NCBI RefSeq assembly: GCF_945957465.1
Contig: NZ_CAMFLC010000033.1
Location: 1 to 42,442, forward strand
Direction: 5' to 3'
Source: an uncultured Leifsonia sp.
GTDB lineage: Bacteria; Actinomycetota; Actinomycetes; Actinomycetales; Microbacteriaceae
Length of the DNA: 42,442 nt
Shown piece after piece: positions 4,155 to 16,945 of the stretch (its first letter is position 1; each line of letters opens with the position of its first letter). A model generated the notes under the pieces. The model was not told the DNA's origin, ran no database searches, and saw nothing but the letters and a program-made list of their open reading frames with translations. A program made the translations under genes and the position numbers.

Positions 4155-4207
4155 AGACGCCATCCTAGGGGCGTGTGGATAACCGTCCCGGCCGTCATCG
4201 CCCGCGT

Positions 4208-4247: not shown

Positions 4248-5552
4248 ATGGCCGGACTCTCGCTCTCACCCGAACAGCGCGCGGTGTTCGAGCTGATCGA
4301 GCACACCCGCGACCACGTCTTCGTCACCGGGCGGGCCGGCACCGGGAAGTCGACGCTCCTCAACCATCTGTCGTGGAACACCGAGAAGTCGATCGTGATC
4401 GCCGCCCCGACCGGCGTGGCCGCGCTCAACGTCGGCGGGCAGACCATCCACTCGCTGTTCAAACTCCCGATCGGCGTGATCGCCGACCACGACATCGACC
4501 AGACCAGTGAGCTGCGCAAGCTGCTGAACAGCATCGACACCCTCGTCATCGACGAGGTCTCGATGGTGAACGCAGACCTGATGGATGCCGTCGACCGCAG
4601 CCTGCGGCAGGCCAGGCAGAAGCCCACGGAGCCGTTCGGCGGCGTGCAGGTCGTGCTGTTCGGAGACCCGTACCAGCTCGCTCCCGTTCCGGGGGACCAC
4701 GAGGAGCGCGCCTACTTCAGCGACACCTACCGTTCGATGTGGTTCTTCGACGCGAAGGTCTGGCGCGACGCCGACCTCCACATCGTCGAGCTGCTGCAGG
4801 TGCACCGGCAGCACGAATCCGACTTCCGCTACATGCTCAACGCCGTGCGCCACGGCCAGGTCACCAAGGAGATCGCCGATCGGCTCAACGCGGTCGGCGC
4901 CCGGCCCGCGCCCGACGACGGCACGATCACGCTCGCGACGCGCAACGACACCGTGAACCGGATCAACGCGCAGGCCCTGGAGCGGCTGCCCGGTCGGCCT
5001 TTGACGGCGAAGGCCGAGGTGAGCGGCGACTTCGGCGGGAGGAACTATCCGGCCGACGAGGTGCTCGAGCTCAAGGTCGGCGCTCAGGTGATGTTCTTGC
5101 GCAACGATGTCGGGCAGGGCGACGGGCCGCGTTGGGTCAACGGCACGATCGGCACGGTGACGCGCATCGACTCCAACGTCTACGTGGAGGTCGACGGCGA
5201 GGTGTACGAAGTCGAGCCGGCGATCTGGGAGAAGTACCGCTACAACTACTCCCCCGAGACGAAGAAGCTCACCAAGGACGTCGTGGCCGAGTTCACGCAG
5301 TTCCCGCTGCGGCTCGCCTGGGCGGTGACCATCCACAAGTCGCAGGGCAAGACGTACGACGCGGCGATCGTGGACCTCGGCTCGCGCGCGTTCACCTCCG
5401 GTCAGACGTACGTGGCCCTCAGCCGCATCACGAGTCTCGACGGCCTCTATCTGACGAGACCCCTGCGGCCGAGCGACATCACCGTCGATCCGGATGTGGA
5501 GCGGTTCATGCGGGACGCCCGGCCGGTTCGCGTGCCGGTGGCGTCGGACTGA
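4248..5552 (+). CDS. Pif1-like SF1B DNA helicase
   Basis: A 434-residue superfamily 1 helicase related to Pif1/RecD2. The ATP-binding Walker A is GRAGTGKST at residues 28-36, motif Ia is APTGVAALNVGGQTIHSLF, Walker B is VIDEVSMV near 100-107, and motif III is FGDPYQLAPV. The C-terminal half carries WVNGTIGTV (SH3-like insert region), VTIHKSQGKTYDAAIVDLG and GQTYVALSRITSLDGLYL, the last RecA2 motifs. Such enzymes unwind DNA 5'-3' at forks or structured DNA. Nothing nearby points to a special pathway. The last codons lie inside a 21-bp tandem repeat that also contains the stop codon. Confidence 0.9.
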   Translation: MAGLSLSPEQRAVFELIEHTRDHVFVTGRAGTGKSTLLNHLSWNTEKSIVIAAPTGVAALNVGGQTIHSLFKLPIGVIADHDIDQTSELRKLLNSIDTLVIDEVSMVNADLMDAVDRSLRQARQKPTEPFGGVQVVLFGDPYQLAPVPGDHEERAYFSDTYRSMWFFDAKVWRDADLHIVELLQVHRQHESDFRYMLNAVRHGQVTKEIADRLNAVGARPAPDDGTITLATRNDTVNRINAQALERLPGRPLTAKAEVSGDFGGRNYPADEVLELKVGAQVMFLRNDVGQGDGPRWVNGTIGTVTRIDSNVYVEVDGEVYEVEPAIWEKYRYNYSPETKKLTKDVVAEFTQFPLRLAWAVTIHKSQGKTYDAAIVDLGSRAFTSGQTYVALSRITSLDGLYLTRPLRPSDITVDPDVERFMRDARPVRVPVASD

Positions 5553-15807: not shown

Positions 15808-16081
15808 GCGCACCTGGGCCGAGGCCCTGGAACGCATGGAACGTGAGCTGCACGGCGCGCTCGCCAAGGTCGATCCGATCCCGTGGCGTCCGCCGGCCGG
15901 TCTCGGGCCGATCCCCGAGGAGCTCCAGGAGCGGGCCGCCCGCCTCCTGGAGGCCCAGCTGCACACCATCCGGTACCTCGAAGACGTGCGTCAGACGACC
16001 GCGCGGCACCTCGCCGCGGTGAACTCCGTGCCGCGCGCCGAGGTCGGCCCGCACCCGGTGTACTTCGACCTCATCGGCTGA
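15788..16081 (+). CDS. Small helical protein in FliT position (putative FliD chaperone)
   Basis: About 97 residues, helical and acidic: RTWAEALERMERELHGALAKV and PEELQERAARLLEAQLHTIRYLEDVRQTTARHLAAV. It follows fliS with a 20-nt overlap, the usual place of the FliD chaperone FliT, but sequence identity to FliT is not evident by eye. The GTG at 15788 has AGGA 8 nt upstream; a GTG at 15797 is also possible. A hairpin at 16083-16108 follows immediately. Confidence 0.65.
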   Translation: MTSVSPERTWAEALERMERELHGALAKVDPIPWRPPAGLGPIPEELQERAARLLEAQLHTIRYLEDVRQTTARHLAAVNSVPRAEVGPHPVYFDLIG

Positions 16082-16082
16082 T

Positions 16083-16108
16083 CCGACACGTCGCGTCGGG
16101 CGTGTCGG
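16083..16108 (+). terminator. Hairpin after the fliD-fliS operon
   Basis: CCGACACG (16083-16090) and CGTGTCGG (16101-16108) pair perfectly around a 10-nt loop, directly after the stop codon at 16081. It is followed by CGTGTTC, not a strong U-tract. Confidence 0.6.
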
Positions 16109-16147
16109 CGTGTTCACCGCGCGTTCAACTGCCGGGGGTGGACCGAC

Positions 16148-16419
16148 ATGTCCACTCGCGGCCGTCGTCCCCAGCTTCTCCACCTGTGGATAACTCTGGG
16201 GAAAAGCCGTGGATGAGTGCGCATAACGTGTGGAGGACACGCGCGGCTTGTGTGGAATCTCAGAATTCACAGCGAGATGTAAAGCGCCCTGACCAGGGAT
16301 TTTATTCGGAACTAGGCAAAATCGAAGCTTTGTTCTAAACCACAACGGTGTAATTCACACCGGGAAATCGGCTGTGGATAGATCTGTGATTTCAGCGCAG
16401 CACCGCGCATTCATCCACA
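16148..16419. other. Gene-free, AT-richer region with DnaA-box-like sequences
   Basis: The stretch 16082-16603 has no plausible gene. On the minus strand, 16193-16185 reads TTATCCACA, a perfect DnaA box. One-mismatch copies are CTATCCACA (16381-16373, minus) and TCATCCACA (16411-16419, plus). Weaker ones are TTCTCCACC (16176-16184, plus), ATGTCCACT (16148-16156, plus) and TCATCCACG (16216-16208, minus). Between the two groups, about 16260-16360 is strikingly AT-rich for this genome. GGTGT-N5-ACACC (16347-16361) is a further small dyad. Confidence 0.5.
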
Positions 16420-16504
16420 ACCCGCACCGAGCATCCTCCGCCCGGTGCGAACCCTGCTGTTCACCTGGCGGGATGGCCCGCGAACTGGGCACGAGCGTCG
16501 TCGC

Positions 16505-16531
16505 TAACGCTTCCCTCCGCGCGGCCGATAG
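16505..16531 (+). promoter_or_regulatory. FliA-type promoter for the flgB-flgC-fliE-fliF... operon
   Basis: TAAC (16505-16508), 15-nt spacer, GCCGATAG (16524-16531). The expected start near 16539 gives a leader of about 65 nt before flgB. Confidence 0.88.
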
Positions 16532-16603
16532 AGGCCTACGAGCACGGATCGCTCGCCGACCGGCCACGGACAGGCCACCCCTCGACCACCGATGGAGTGC
16601 AGC

Positions 16604-16945
16604 GTGCTCGAATCCGTGACCAGTGCCGCCCTGTCGAGCGCTCTCGACGGCCTCTCGGCGCGCCAGCGCGCGATCGCCAACAACATCGCCAACGTCAACA
16701 CGCCCGGCTACACCGCGGAGCGGGTGTCGTTCGAGGACGCCCTGGCCGCCTCGGTCGCGCGCGGAGACGGCCACGCCTCCTCGACCACCGGCCGCTCCCT
16801 CGAGCCCACCCGGACCGACGGCAACAACGTCAATCTCGACACTGAGACGCTCTCCAACGTCGACACGGTGCTCCGCTTCCAGTTCGCCTCCCAGGCGGCG
16901 GGCAACGAGTTCTCGCTCGTCCGCGCCGCCCTGAAGACCAGCTGA
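16604..16945 (+). CDS. flgB: Flagellar basal-body rod protein FlgB
   Basis: A 113-residue proximal rod subunit. ALSSALDGLSARQRAIANNIANVNTPGYTAERVSFEDAL is the rod-family N-terminal signature, and LRFQFASQAAGNEFSLVRAALK is the matching C-terminal helix. GTG at 16604 is preferred because GGAG (16594-16597) lies 6 nt upstream; an in-frame ATG at 16592 has no binding site. First gene of a long operon running to flgE. Confidence 0.93.
   Translation: MLESVTSAALSSALDGLSARQRAIANNIANVNTPGYTAERVSFEDALAASVARGDGHASSTTGRSLEPTRTDGNNVNLDTETLSNVDTVLRFQFASQAAGNEFSLVRAALKTS

Follow-up and report, generated by a model that had tools for sequence, protein, structure and literature searches.

A rigidly spaced DnaA-box element beside the flagellar genes of Leifsonia: a candidate datA-like site related to an element upstream of dnaB

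Results

A DnaA-box cluster in the gap before flgB

The window, that is, the whole stretch of 42,442 bp that was analysed, carries a gap (16082-16603) flanked by a short ORF after fliS, which ends at 16081, and by flgB, which starts at 16604. Six matches to the DnaA-box consensus TTWTCCACA with at most one mismatch were found in the window, and four of them lie inside this gap, one being a perfect box and three having one mismatch. Shuffling of the whole window gave a mean of 1.8 matches, and six were reached in 1 of 100 shuffles. For the gap itself, a first-order Markov model gave a mean of 0.20 boxes against the four observed, a number reached in 1 of 2000 simulations, and the nine GTGGA/TCCAC cores of the gap (mean 1.3) were reached in none of the 2000. 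Moreover, stretches of 522 bp taken in 50-bp steps across the window held four boxes only where they overlapped the gap, and at most two elsewhere.

The initial annotation had listed three boxes, TTATCCACA at 16185-16193 (minus strand), CTATCCACA at 16373-16381 (minus strand) and TCATCCACA at 16411-16419 (plus strand), and all three are present there. The AT-rich patch that it described was borne out as well, with a GC content of 49.8% at 16173-16389 and 44.8% at 16266-16352 versus 70.3% in the window. The cluster as such is real, but the box at 16411-16419 falls outside the conserved element described below. Among the 22 Leifsonia loci at which this element adjoins flgB, that box is restricted to this genome and the four genomes closest to it, and it was therefore not counted as part of the element. 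The features of the gap are collected in Table 1.

The second perfect DnaA box of the window (4174-4182, minus strand) immediately precedes a gene for a PIF1-like helicase (4248-5552; Pfam PIF1), and the same box is found before the same gene in the relative G015 (L075:3830).

Table 1. Features of the gap before flgB and its downstream neighbour, with positions in the window
Feature	Position	Strand	Basis
E1, whole conserved element, 217 bp	16173-16389	+	alignment of 27 copies; profile match in 28/28 genus genomes
Box-like TTCTCCACC, head to head with abutting box 1; TTGTCCACC in several relatives	16176-16184	+	sequence, alignment
DnaA box 1, TTATCCACA; TGTGGATAAC columns invariant in 27/27	16185-16193	-	box scan, alignment
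Weaker DnaA-like box TTTTCCCCA, 12 bp from box 1	16197-16205	-	register kept in relatives, sequence varies
Box-like TCATCCACG (GTGGATGA)	16208-16216	-	G.GGA invariant, GTGGA nearly so
Inverted repeat CGTGT-GGAGG-ACACG, near-invariant block	16227-16241	.	sequence, alignment; as RNA without compensatory changes
Box-like TGTGGAGGA, overlapped by the CGTGT-GGAGG-ACACG repeat	16229-16237		sequence, alignment
Box-like TGTGGAATC	16251-16259	-	sequence, alignment
Central motif TGACCAG (TGAYCNG), then T-tract; 105 bp from box 1 start	16290-16296	+	same offset in E2
TCGAA...TTCTAAA block; TCGAAC...TTCGAAA in most relatives	16322-16339	+	alignment
Inverted repeat GTGT-AATTC-ACAC	16348-16360	.	sequence, alignment
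DnaA box 2, CTATCCACA, with TCATCCACA in most relatives; 188 bp from box 1	16373-16381	-	box scan, alignment
Extra one-mismatch box TCATCCACA, outside E1	16411-16419	+	this genome and four nearest relatives only
FliA (sigma-28)-type promoter of flgB, TAAC-N15-GCCGATAG, separate from E1	16505-16531	+	pattern match
flgB (rod protein), downstream neighbour, not in E1	16604-16945	+	Pfam Flg_bb_rod; name from position and size

Conservation and borders of the element

With the gap as blastn query, all 27 other genomes of the genus were matched, together with 6 of 32 more distant genomes, in which only the promoter end (query 423-509) was covered. The conserved part, which we call E1, was aligned for this genome and 26 of its 27 relatives; the alignment left out G012, which has E1 at a locus that was not aligned, and L036-L038, which lie outside the genus and contain the promoter block only. 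It has 218 columns, 64 of them invariant, and indels of 1 bp only, and boxes 1 and 2 are 188 bp apart in 18 and 187 bp apart in 9 of the 27 copies. When this genome was compared with the 21 other loci adjacent to flgB, the E1 interior showed a mean identity of 70% and 0.38 gap columns, the left spacer 44% and 38, and the right spacer, up to the promoter, 26% and 61. E1 is a sharply bounded and rigidly spaced element, and the DNA on both sides of it drifts.

A sequence-only profile of E1 (R1) gave E1 as its strongest match, once per genome, in all 28 Leifsonia genomes. The initial annotation had named a lack of box conservation in close relatives among the results that would refute it; instead, the element is present in all 28 genomes of the genus. 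When 84,980 species genomes were searched with an exact degenerate pattern of the left module, which misses any Leifsonia that differs at a fixed base, 11 contigs matched, all of them titled Leifsonia.

A second, diverged copy (E1b) was observed in two small genomes. In G018 (L069:5520-5708) it has seven box-like sites, scores 37.7 bits and lies about 0.3 kb from E1, and in G023 (L070:5570-5759) it has six such sites, scores 44.2 bits and lies about 1.4 kb from E1.

The short inverted repeats in E1 would also fit a structured RNA or leader. However, a consensus fold of the E1 copies predicted nine pairs, none of them with a compensatory change, and no Rfam match was found at E values up to 1. 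A structured RNA was rejected on these grounds, and we find the idea scarcely credible.

Independence of E1 from the flagellar genes

The initial annotation had suggested that DnaA acts on flgB transcription, and the position of E1 gives some reason for regulation of the flgB operon by DnaA or another factor bound there. The flgB gene lies directly downstream of E1 in 22 of the 27 aligned genomes, and its start codon is 146-232 bp away from box 2. This distance varies, however, while the E1 interior does not, and the two can be found apart in both directions. Of the 28 genomes, 25 have a full-length flhA gene, G018 has fragments of it only, and G015 and G023 lack it; all three of these last genomes keep E1, and in G015, a gene for a UPF0014 membrane protein follows E1 in place of flgB. 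Conversely, in G020 and G027, flhA is present and E1 lies 0.8 kb beyond it, about 20 kb from flgB, and the gap before flgB holds no box (none in 14 kb in L224, and one stray match 3 kb off in L225). The flgB promoter is in addition a block of its own. The pattern TAA[CA]-N14-16-G[CG]CGAT[AT], which we take to represent the FliA consensus at 16505-16531, occurs 95-107 bp before flgB in 18 of the 22 Leifsonia loci adjacent to flgB. Regulation of flgB from E1 was rejected, since the position of E1 is independent of flgB, and we consider it improbable.

FliC, FliD, FliS, FlgB and FlgC of G020 and G027 (L224/L225), two genomes of the same genus, share only about 45-57% identity with their counterparts in the window, and FlhA 71-72%. 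A portion of the flagellar locus may have been exchanged in these two genomes.

A related element, E2, upstream of dnaB

Besides E1 and E1b, profile R1 gave a weaker second match, with E values of 1.8e-4 or better, in all 28 genomes of the genus. We call this element E2; in the present genome it lies between rplI and dnaB (C70:12316-12523). The dnaB gene stands beside E2 in all 25 genus genomes checked (all except G009, G013 and G018) and rplI in 24 of these 25, the contig of the remaining one ending before rplI. E2 is found at -18 to -25 kb from dnaA and in the same orientation as dnaA (25 of 28 genomes, those with a shared contig), and E1 and E2 are mutually inverted in all 24 of the 28 genomes in which they share a contig.

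An alignment of 22 of the 28 E2 copies (A2; L153 was dropped for its runs of N, and G009, G013, G015, G018 and G019 were not aligned) has 209 columns and no gap. E2 shares with E1 the same box 1, the TGAYCNG motif at 105 bp and, at 190 bp, a final box or a site resembling one; this final site is TGTGGATG in some E2 copies and TGTGTACA or TGTGCACA in others. Counted from the start of box 1, the TGAYCNG offset is 104 or 105 bp in 25 of 27 E1 copies and 105 bp in 19 of 22 E2 copies. E2 differs from E1 in lying next to dnaB, in its opposite orientation and in a GAAACGCCG block where E1 has CGTGTGGAGGACACG. A profile made from E2 copies only, with no E1 among them (R2), gave a match of 35.2 bits (E=2.6e-8) to the E1 of this genome, covering the left part only (129 bp, model positions 3-131 of 209). 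As the E1 profile finds E2 and the E2 profile finds E1, the match is reciprocal, and we read it as shared descent or at least shared design. E1 thus carries the profile match and the 105-bp offset of an E2-type element, but not the adjacency to dnaB. In our reading, E1 is probably a Leifsonia-specific inverted extra copy of E2 that arose by duplication.

Spread of E2 beyond Leifsonia

At E<=0.01, profile R1 matched 239 of 398 genomes of the family, in 68 of 85 genera. In this family scan, scores above 110 bits were confined to Leifsonia itself, and the best other match reached 38.3 bits. Profile R2 matched 145 of 396 genomes of the order at E<=0.001 and 140 of 296 genomes of the class at E<=1e-4. 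Among the best 49 loci from other genera of the family (the 20 top-scoring from the R1 scan and 29 from the R2 scan, with three genomes represented twice), dnaB was present in the same stretch of about 3 kb in all 49.

A further 28 longer loci of the order and class, two of them inside the family, were picked by hand among the matches, mostly for their long contigs and not at random. In 21 of these 28, and in 19 of the 26 outside the family, a dnaB match lies within about 430 bp of the element; in one of the 21 (L220), dnaB is on the other side of it. The remaining loci are one dnaA-dnaN gap and six with no dnaB in view. Six loci (L212, L215, L217, L232, L233 and L240) showed dnaB matches in pieces about 0.4-2 kb apart, as would be expected if dnaB contained inteins.

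The TGAYCNG offset is 105 or 106 bp in 25 of 29 family loci from other genera. Among ten loci from outside the family it is 92-116 bp in six, and in the other four the motif was not found at that distance. Copies without the central motif amount to 2 of 27 for E1, 3 of 22 for E2 and 4 of 29 for the family loci from other genera.

One genome from another genus of the family holds a second E2-like element (L244, G772:C1:349641-349817; 59.9 bits) at 63 kb from the one at dnaB, between an ORF for a DEAD helicase and an ORF with DACNG/DACNH sensor domains. Judging by this genome, extra E2-like copies may have arisen more than once.

Position of E1 relative to dnaA and oriC

Contig C45 of this genome carries dnaA, which has boxes on both sides and is followed by dnaN. 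As E1, E2 and dnaA fall on three contigs of this draft of 112 contigs, the position of E1 was taken from the relatives. In the 23 of 28 genomes in which E1 and dnaA share a contig, they are 50-128 kb apart, and E1 is always 5' of dnaA and in the opposite orientation; these 23 genomes are not independent because they share ancestry. Clusters of at least three boxes within 350 bp are few in the 400 kb around dnaA in the two genomes G023 and G011. Apart from oriC and the stretch that precedes dnaA, they are E1 (with E1b in G023), E2 at -17 to -20 kb and a cluster at +16 to +19 kb. This last cluster, on the 3' side of dnaA at +15.7 kb from dnaA in G011 and +18.3 kb in G023, has TTAACA motifs like those of oriC (CGTGGATAAGTTATCCACAG...TTAACAGTGGGGATAATTACAC).

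The initial annotation had mentioned a main origin, which it thought unlikely, and a plasmid or phage remnant. E1 is not next to dnaA or dnaN, and a main origin was rejected on this ground. TTAA motifs number six in the 428-bp oriC gap and none in the E1 of this genome, and one is present in 3 of the 26 aligned relatives. The minimum of the cumulative GC skew (400 kb) lies 10 kb from dnaA in G023, where E1 is at -128 kb; the signal of G011 was noisy and its minimum was found at -130 kb, 27 kb beyond E1 and not at dnaA, so that the GC skew agrees in G023 only. In the cumulative AT skew, the peak lies at -101 kb in G023 and at -115 kb in G011, nearer to E1 than to dnaA, a signal that we do not interpret. 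The TTAA motifs and the GC skew also bear on a second or cryptic origin at E1. The boxes of E1 flank AT-rich DNA in the manner of an origin, but the dnaA-dnaN gap carries boxes of its own, E1 is without the TTAA motifs of oriC, and the GC skew of G023 turns near dnaA, so we hold this reading to be very improbable.

A plasmid or phage remnant was likewise rejected, as blastn of the element gave no match in 72,556 plasmid records or 50,697 phage records. The element also keeps one position relative to oriC throughout the genus (23 of 28 genomes testable).

The fixed orientation of E1 relative to dnaA (23 of 23 testable genomes) would also suit an architectural or segregation site near oriC, at which a different protein is the main ligand, through TGAYCNG, GTGT-N5-ACAC or TTCGAA, and the DnaA boxes are partners. 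Blocks other than boxes, namely CGTGTGGAGGACACG, TCGAA and GTAATTC, show much the same degree of conservation as the boxes. On the other hand, boxes 1 and 2 are among the most conserved parts of E1, and the related E2 is rich in boxes across the class. We therefore regard this as rather unlikely. The GACAC of the E1 core may be a WhiA site, and the central motif may be an IHF-like site.

Discussion

In this study, we found that a short non-coding element with DnaA boxes, next to the flagellar genes in most Leifsonia genomes, is tied in its position to dnaA and not to flgB. Among the readings offered by the initial annotation, a site like datA or DARS is the best supported, as E1 is a conserved, rigid and oriC-linked DnaA-box element outside oriC; main origin, plasmid or phage remnant and flgB regulation were not supported. 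Natural experiments, namely lost flagella, a displaced flgB and additional copies, point to the E1 element itself as the target of selection. E1 looks like an additional, inverted copy of the DnaA-box element that stands beside dnaB, so its role is probably in replication control and not in swimming. We propose, with a probability of about 0.6, that E1 is a double-stranded DNA site for the control of DnaA that works like datA and is an inverted extra copy of the widespread actinobacterial element E2.

In the proposed mechanism, DnaA would be expected on the left box array (16176-16259) and on box 2 (16373-16381), and a protein at the fixed central site, the TGAYCNG motif with its T-tract, would hold the DNA in place or bend it, bringing the two arrays together in a defined geometry. 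TGAYCNG is a putative protein site. From its rigid length and variable interior, we suppose that E1 forms a folded complex with protein in which helical phase matters. The distance of E1 from dnaA-oriC in the relatives means that it would be duplicated soon after initiation. After this duplication, E1 would take up or inactivate DnaA in the manner of datA or the Bacillus subtilis clusters, which would help to prevent early re-initiation. The negative sign is the least certain of these steps, because the sign of control is not readable from sequence. Most internal sites of E1 are imperfect boxes, which speaks against the datA-like reading.

E1 would have arisen in the Leifsonia lineage from E2, whose place in many Actinomycetes is upstream of dnaB. 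Because of this location, the first role of E2 could be in the transcription of dnaB, with E1 as a copy, and E2 may control dnaB in addition to its part in DnaA control. E1 lies far from dnaB, which suggests that the design is used without dnaB as well.

The same type of architecture, box arrays with an accessory site at a fixed distance, would also allow E1 to work in the opposite direction, as a DARS-like site that speeds the exchange of ADP for ATP on DnaA and promotes initiation. Sections of PMC10380432 report that DARS2 also needs bending proteins. The sequence is silent on the sign, but the position near oriC is more like that of datA, and we see the DARS-like alternative as unlikely.

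More tentatively than for E1 itself, and at somewhat less than even odds, E1 and E2 may represent an undescribed actinobacterial family of DnaA-control elements, an independent counterpart of datA and DARS. Its members would consist of a box array, a TGAYCNG site for a bending protein and a second array, in a geometry that is fixed in Microbacteriaceae and looser across the class. The original would lie upstream of dnaB, with extra copies in particular genera, of which E1 is the clearest.

We judge that the mechanism by which actinobacteria keep to a single round of replication per cycle is less understood than that of E. coli. E1 is 217 bp long, has a fixed geometry, lies apart from dnaB and is dispensable to the flagellar genes, so that it can be cleanly deleted, moved or multiplied. 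E2 precedes dnaB in many genomes across the class and offers a general target, namely a DNA site that would link DnaA with the helicase gene.

Clusters of DnaA boxes outside oriC are already known from E. coli, B. subtilis and Streptomyces. No description of a fixed-geometry family, of its link to dnaB or of the extra copy in Leifsonia was found in the titles and abstract beginnings of the open-licence literature, an absence that is weak evidence. The same literature gave no paper that joins DnaA box, flagellar and Microbacterium, or that joins all of DARS, datA, DnaA and Actinobacteria.

In Streptomyces, the DnaA-box clusters D78, H24 and H69 lie around oriC, and deletion of D78 reportedly raises the replication frequency. 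These clusters resemble E1 in being actinobacterial box clusters around oriC, and E2 could coincide with one of the three; they differ in that strong matches to E1 are found in Leifsonia only. Parts of PMC13270200 propose that contacts of DnaA domain I link distally located box clusters within the oriC of Streptomyces.

The clusters of B. subtilis are likewise located outside oriC, and E1, a box cluster outside oriC above chance, is of this kind. As stated in parts of PMC5295017, deletion of six DnaA-box clusters leads to early initiation there, and the effect is strong only with all six gone, no single one being a major regulator. The same parts of PMC5295017 describe no fixed-geometry family with a central motif, which sets E1 apart.

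E1 also resembles DARS1 and DARS2, which, according to sections of PMC5295017 and PMC10380432, have box cores, bending-protein sites (DARS2) and a chromosomal position that matters; the likeness is one of architecture and not of homology, and the activity of E1 is putative. The comparison with datA of E. coli goes further, although here too it concerns architecture and not homology, as E1 has different neighbours and its central site is putative. At the motif level, and with its position taken from relatives, E1 is a non-coding DnaA-box cluster outside oriC and on the oriC side. According to the sections of PMC10380432 on datA, its minimal region is 187 bp, the spacing between the IHF site and the boxes matters, DNA looping has been postulated and the function is weaker when datA is moved away from oriC. 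Like datA as described there, E1 is a short DnaA-box element on the oriC side that joins boxes to an accessory-protein site, putative in E1, at a set spacing, and its stretch from box 1 through box 2, 197 bp long, comes close to the datA minimal length.
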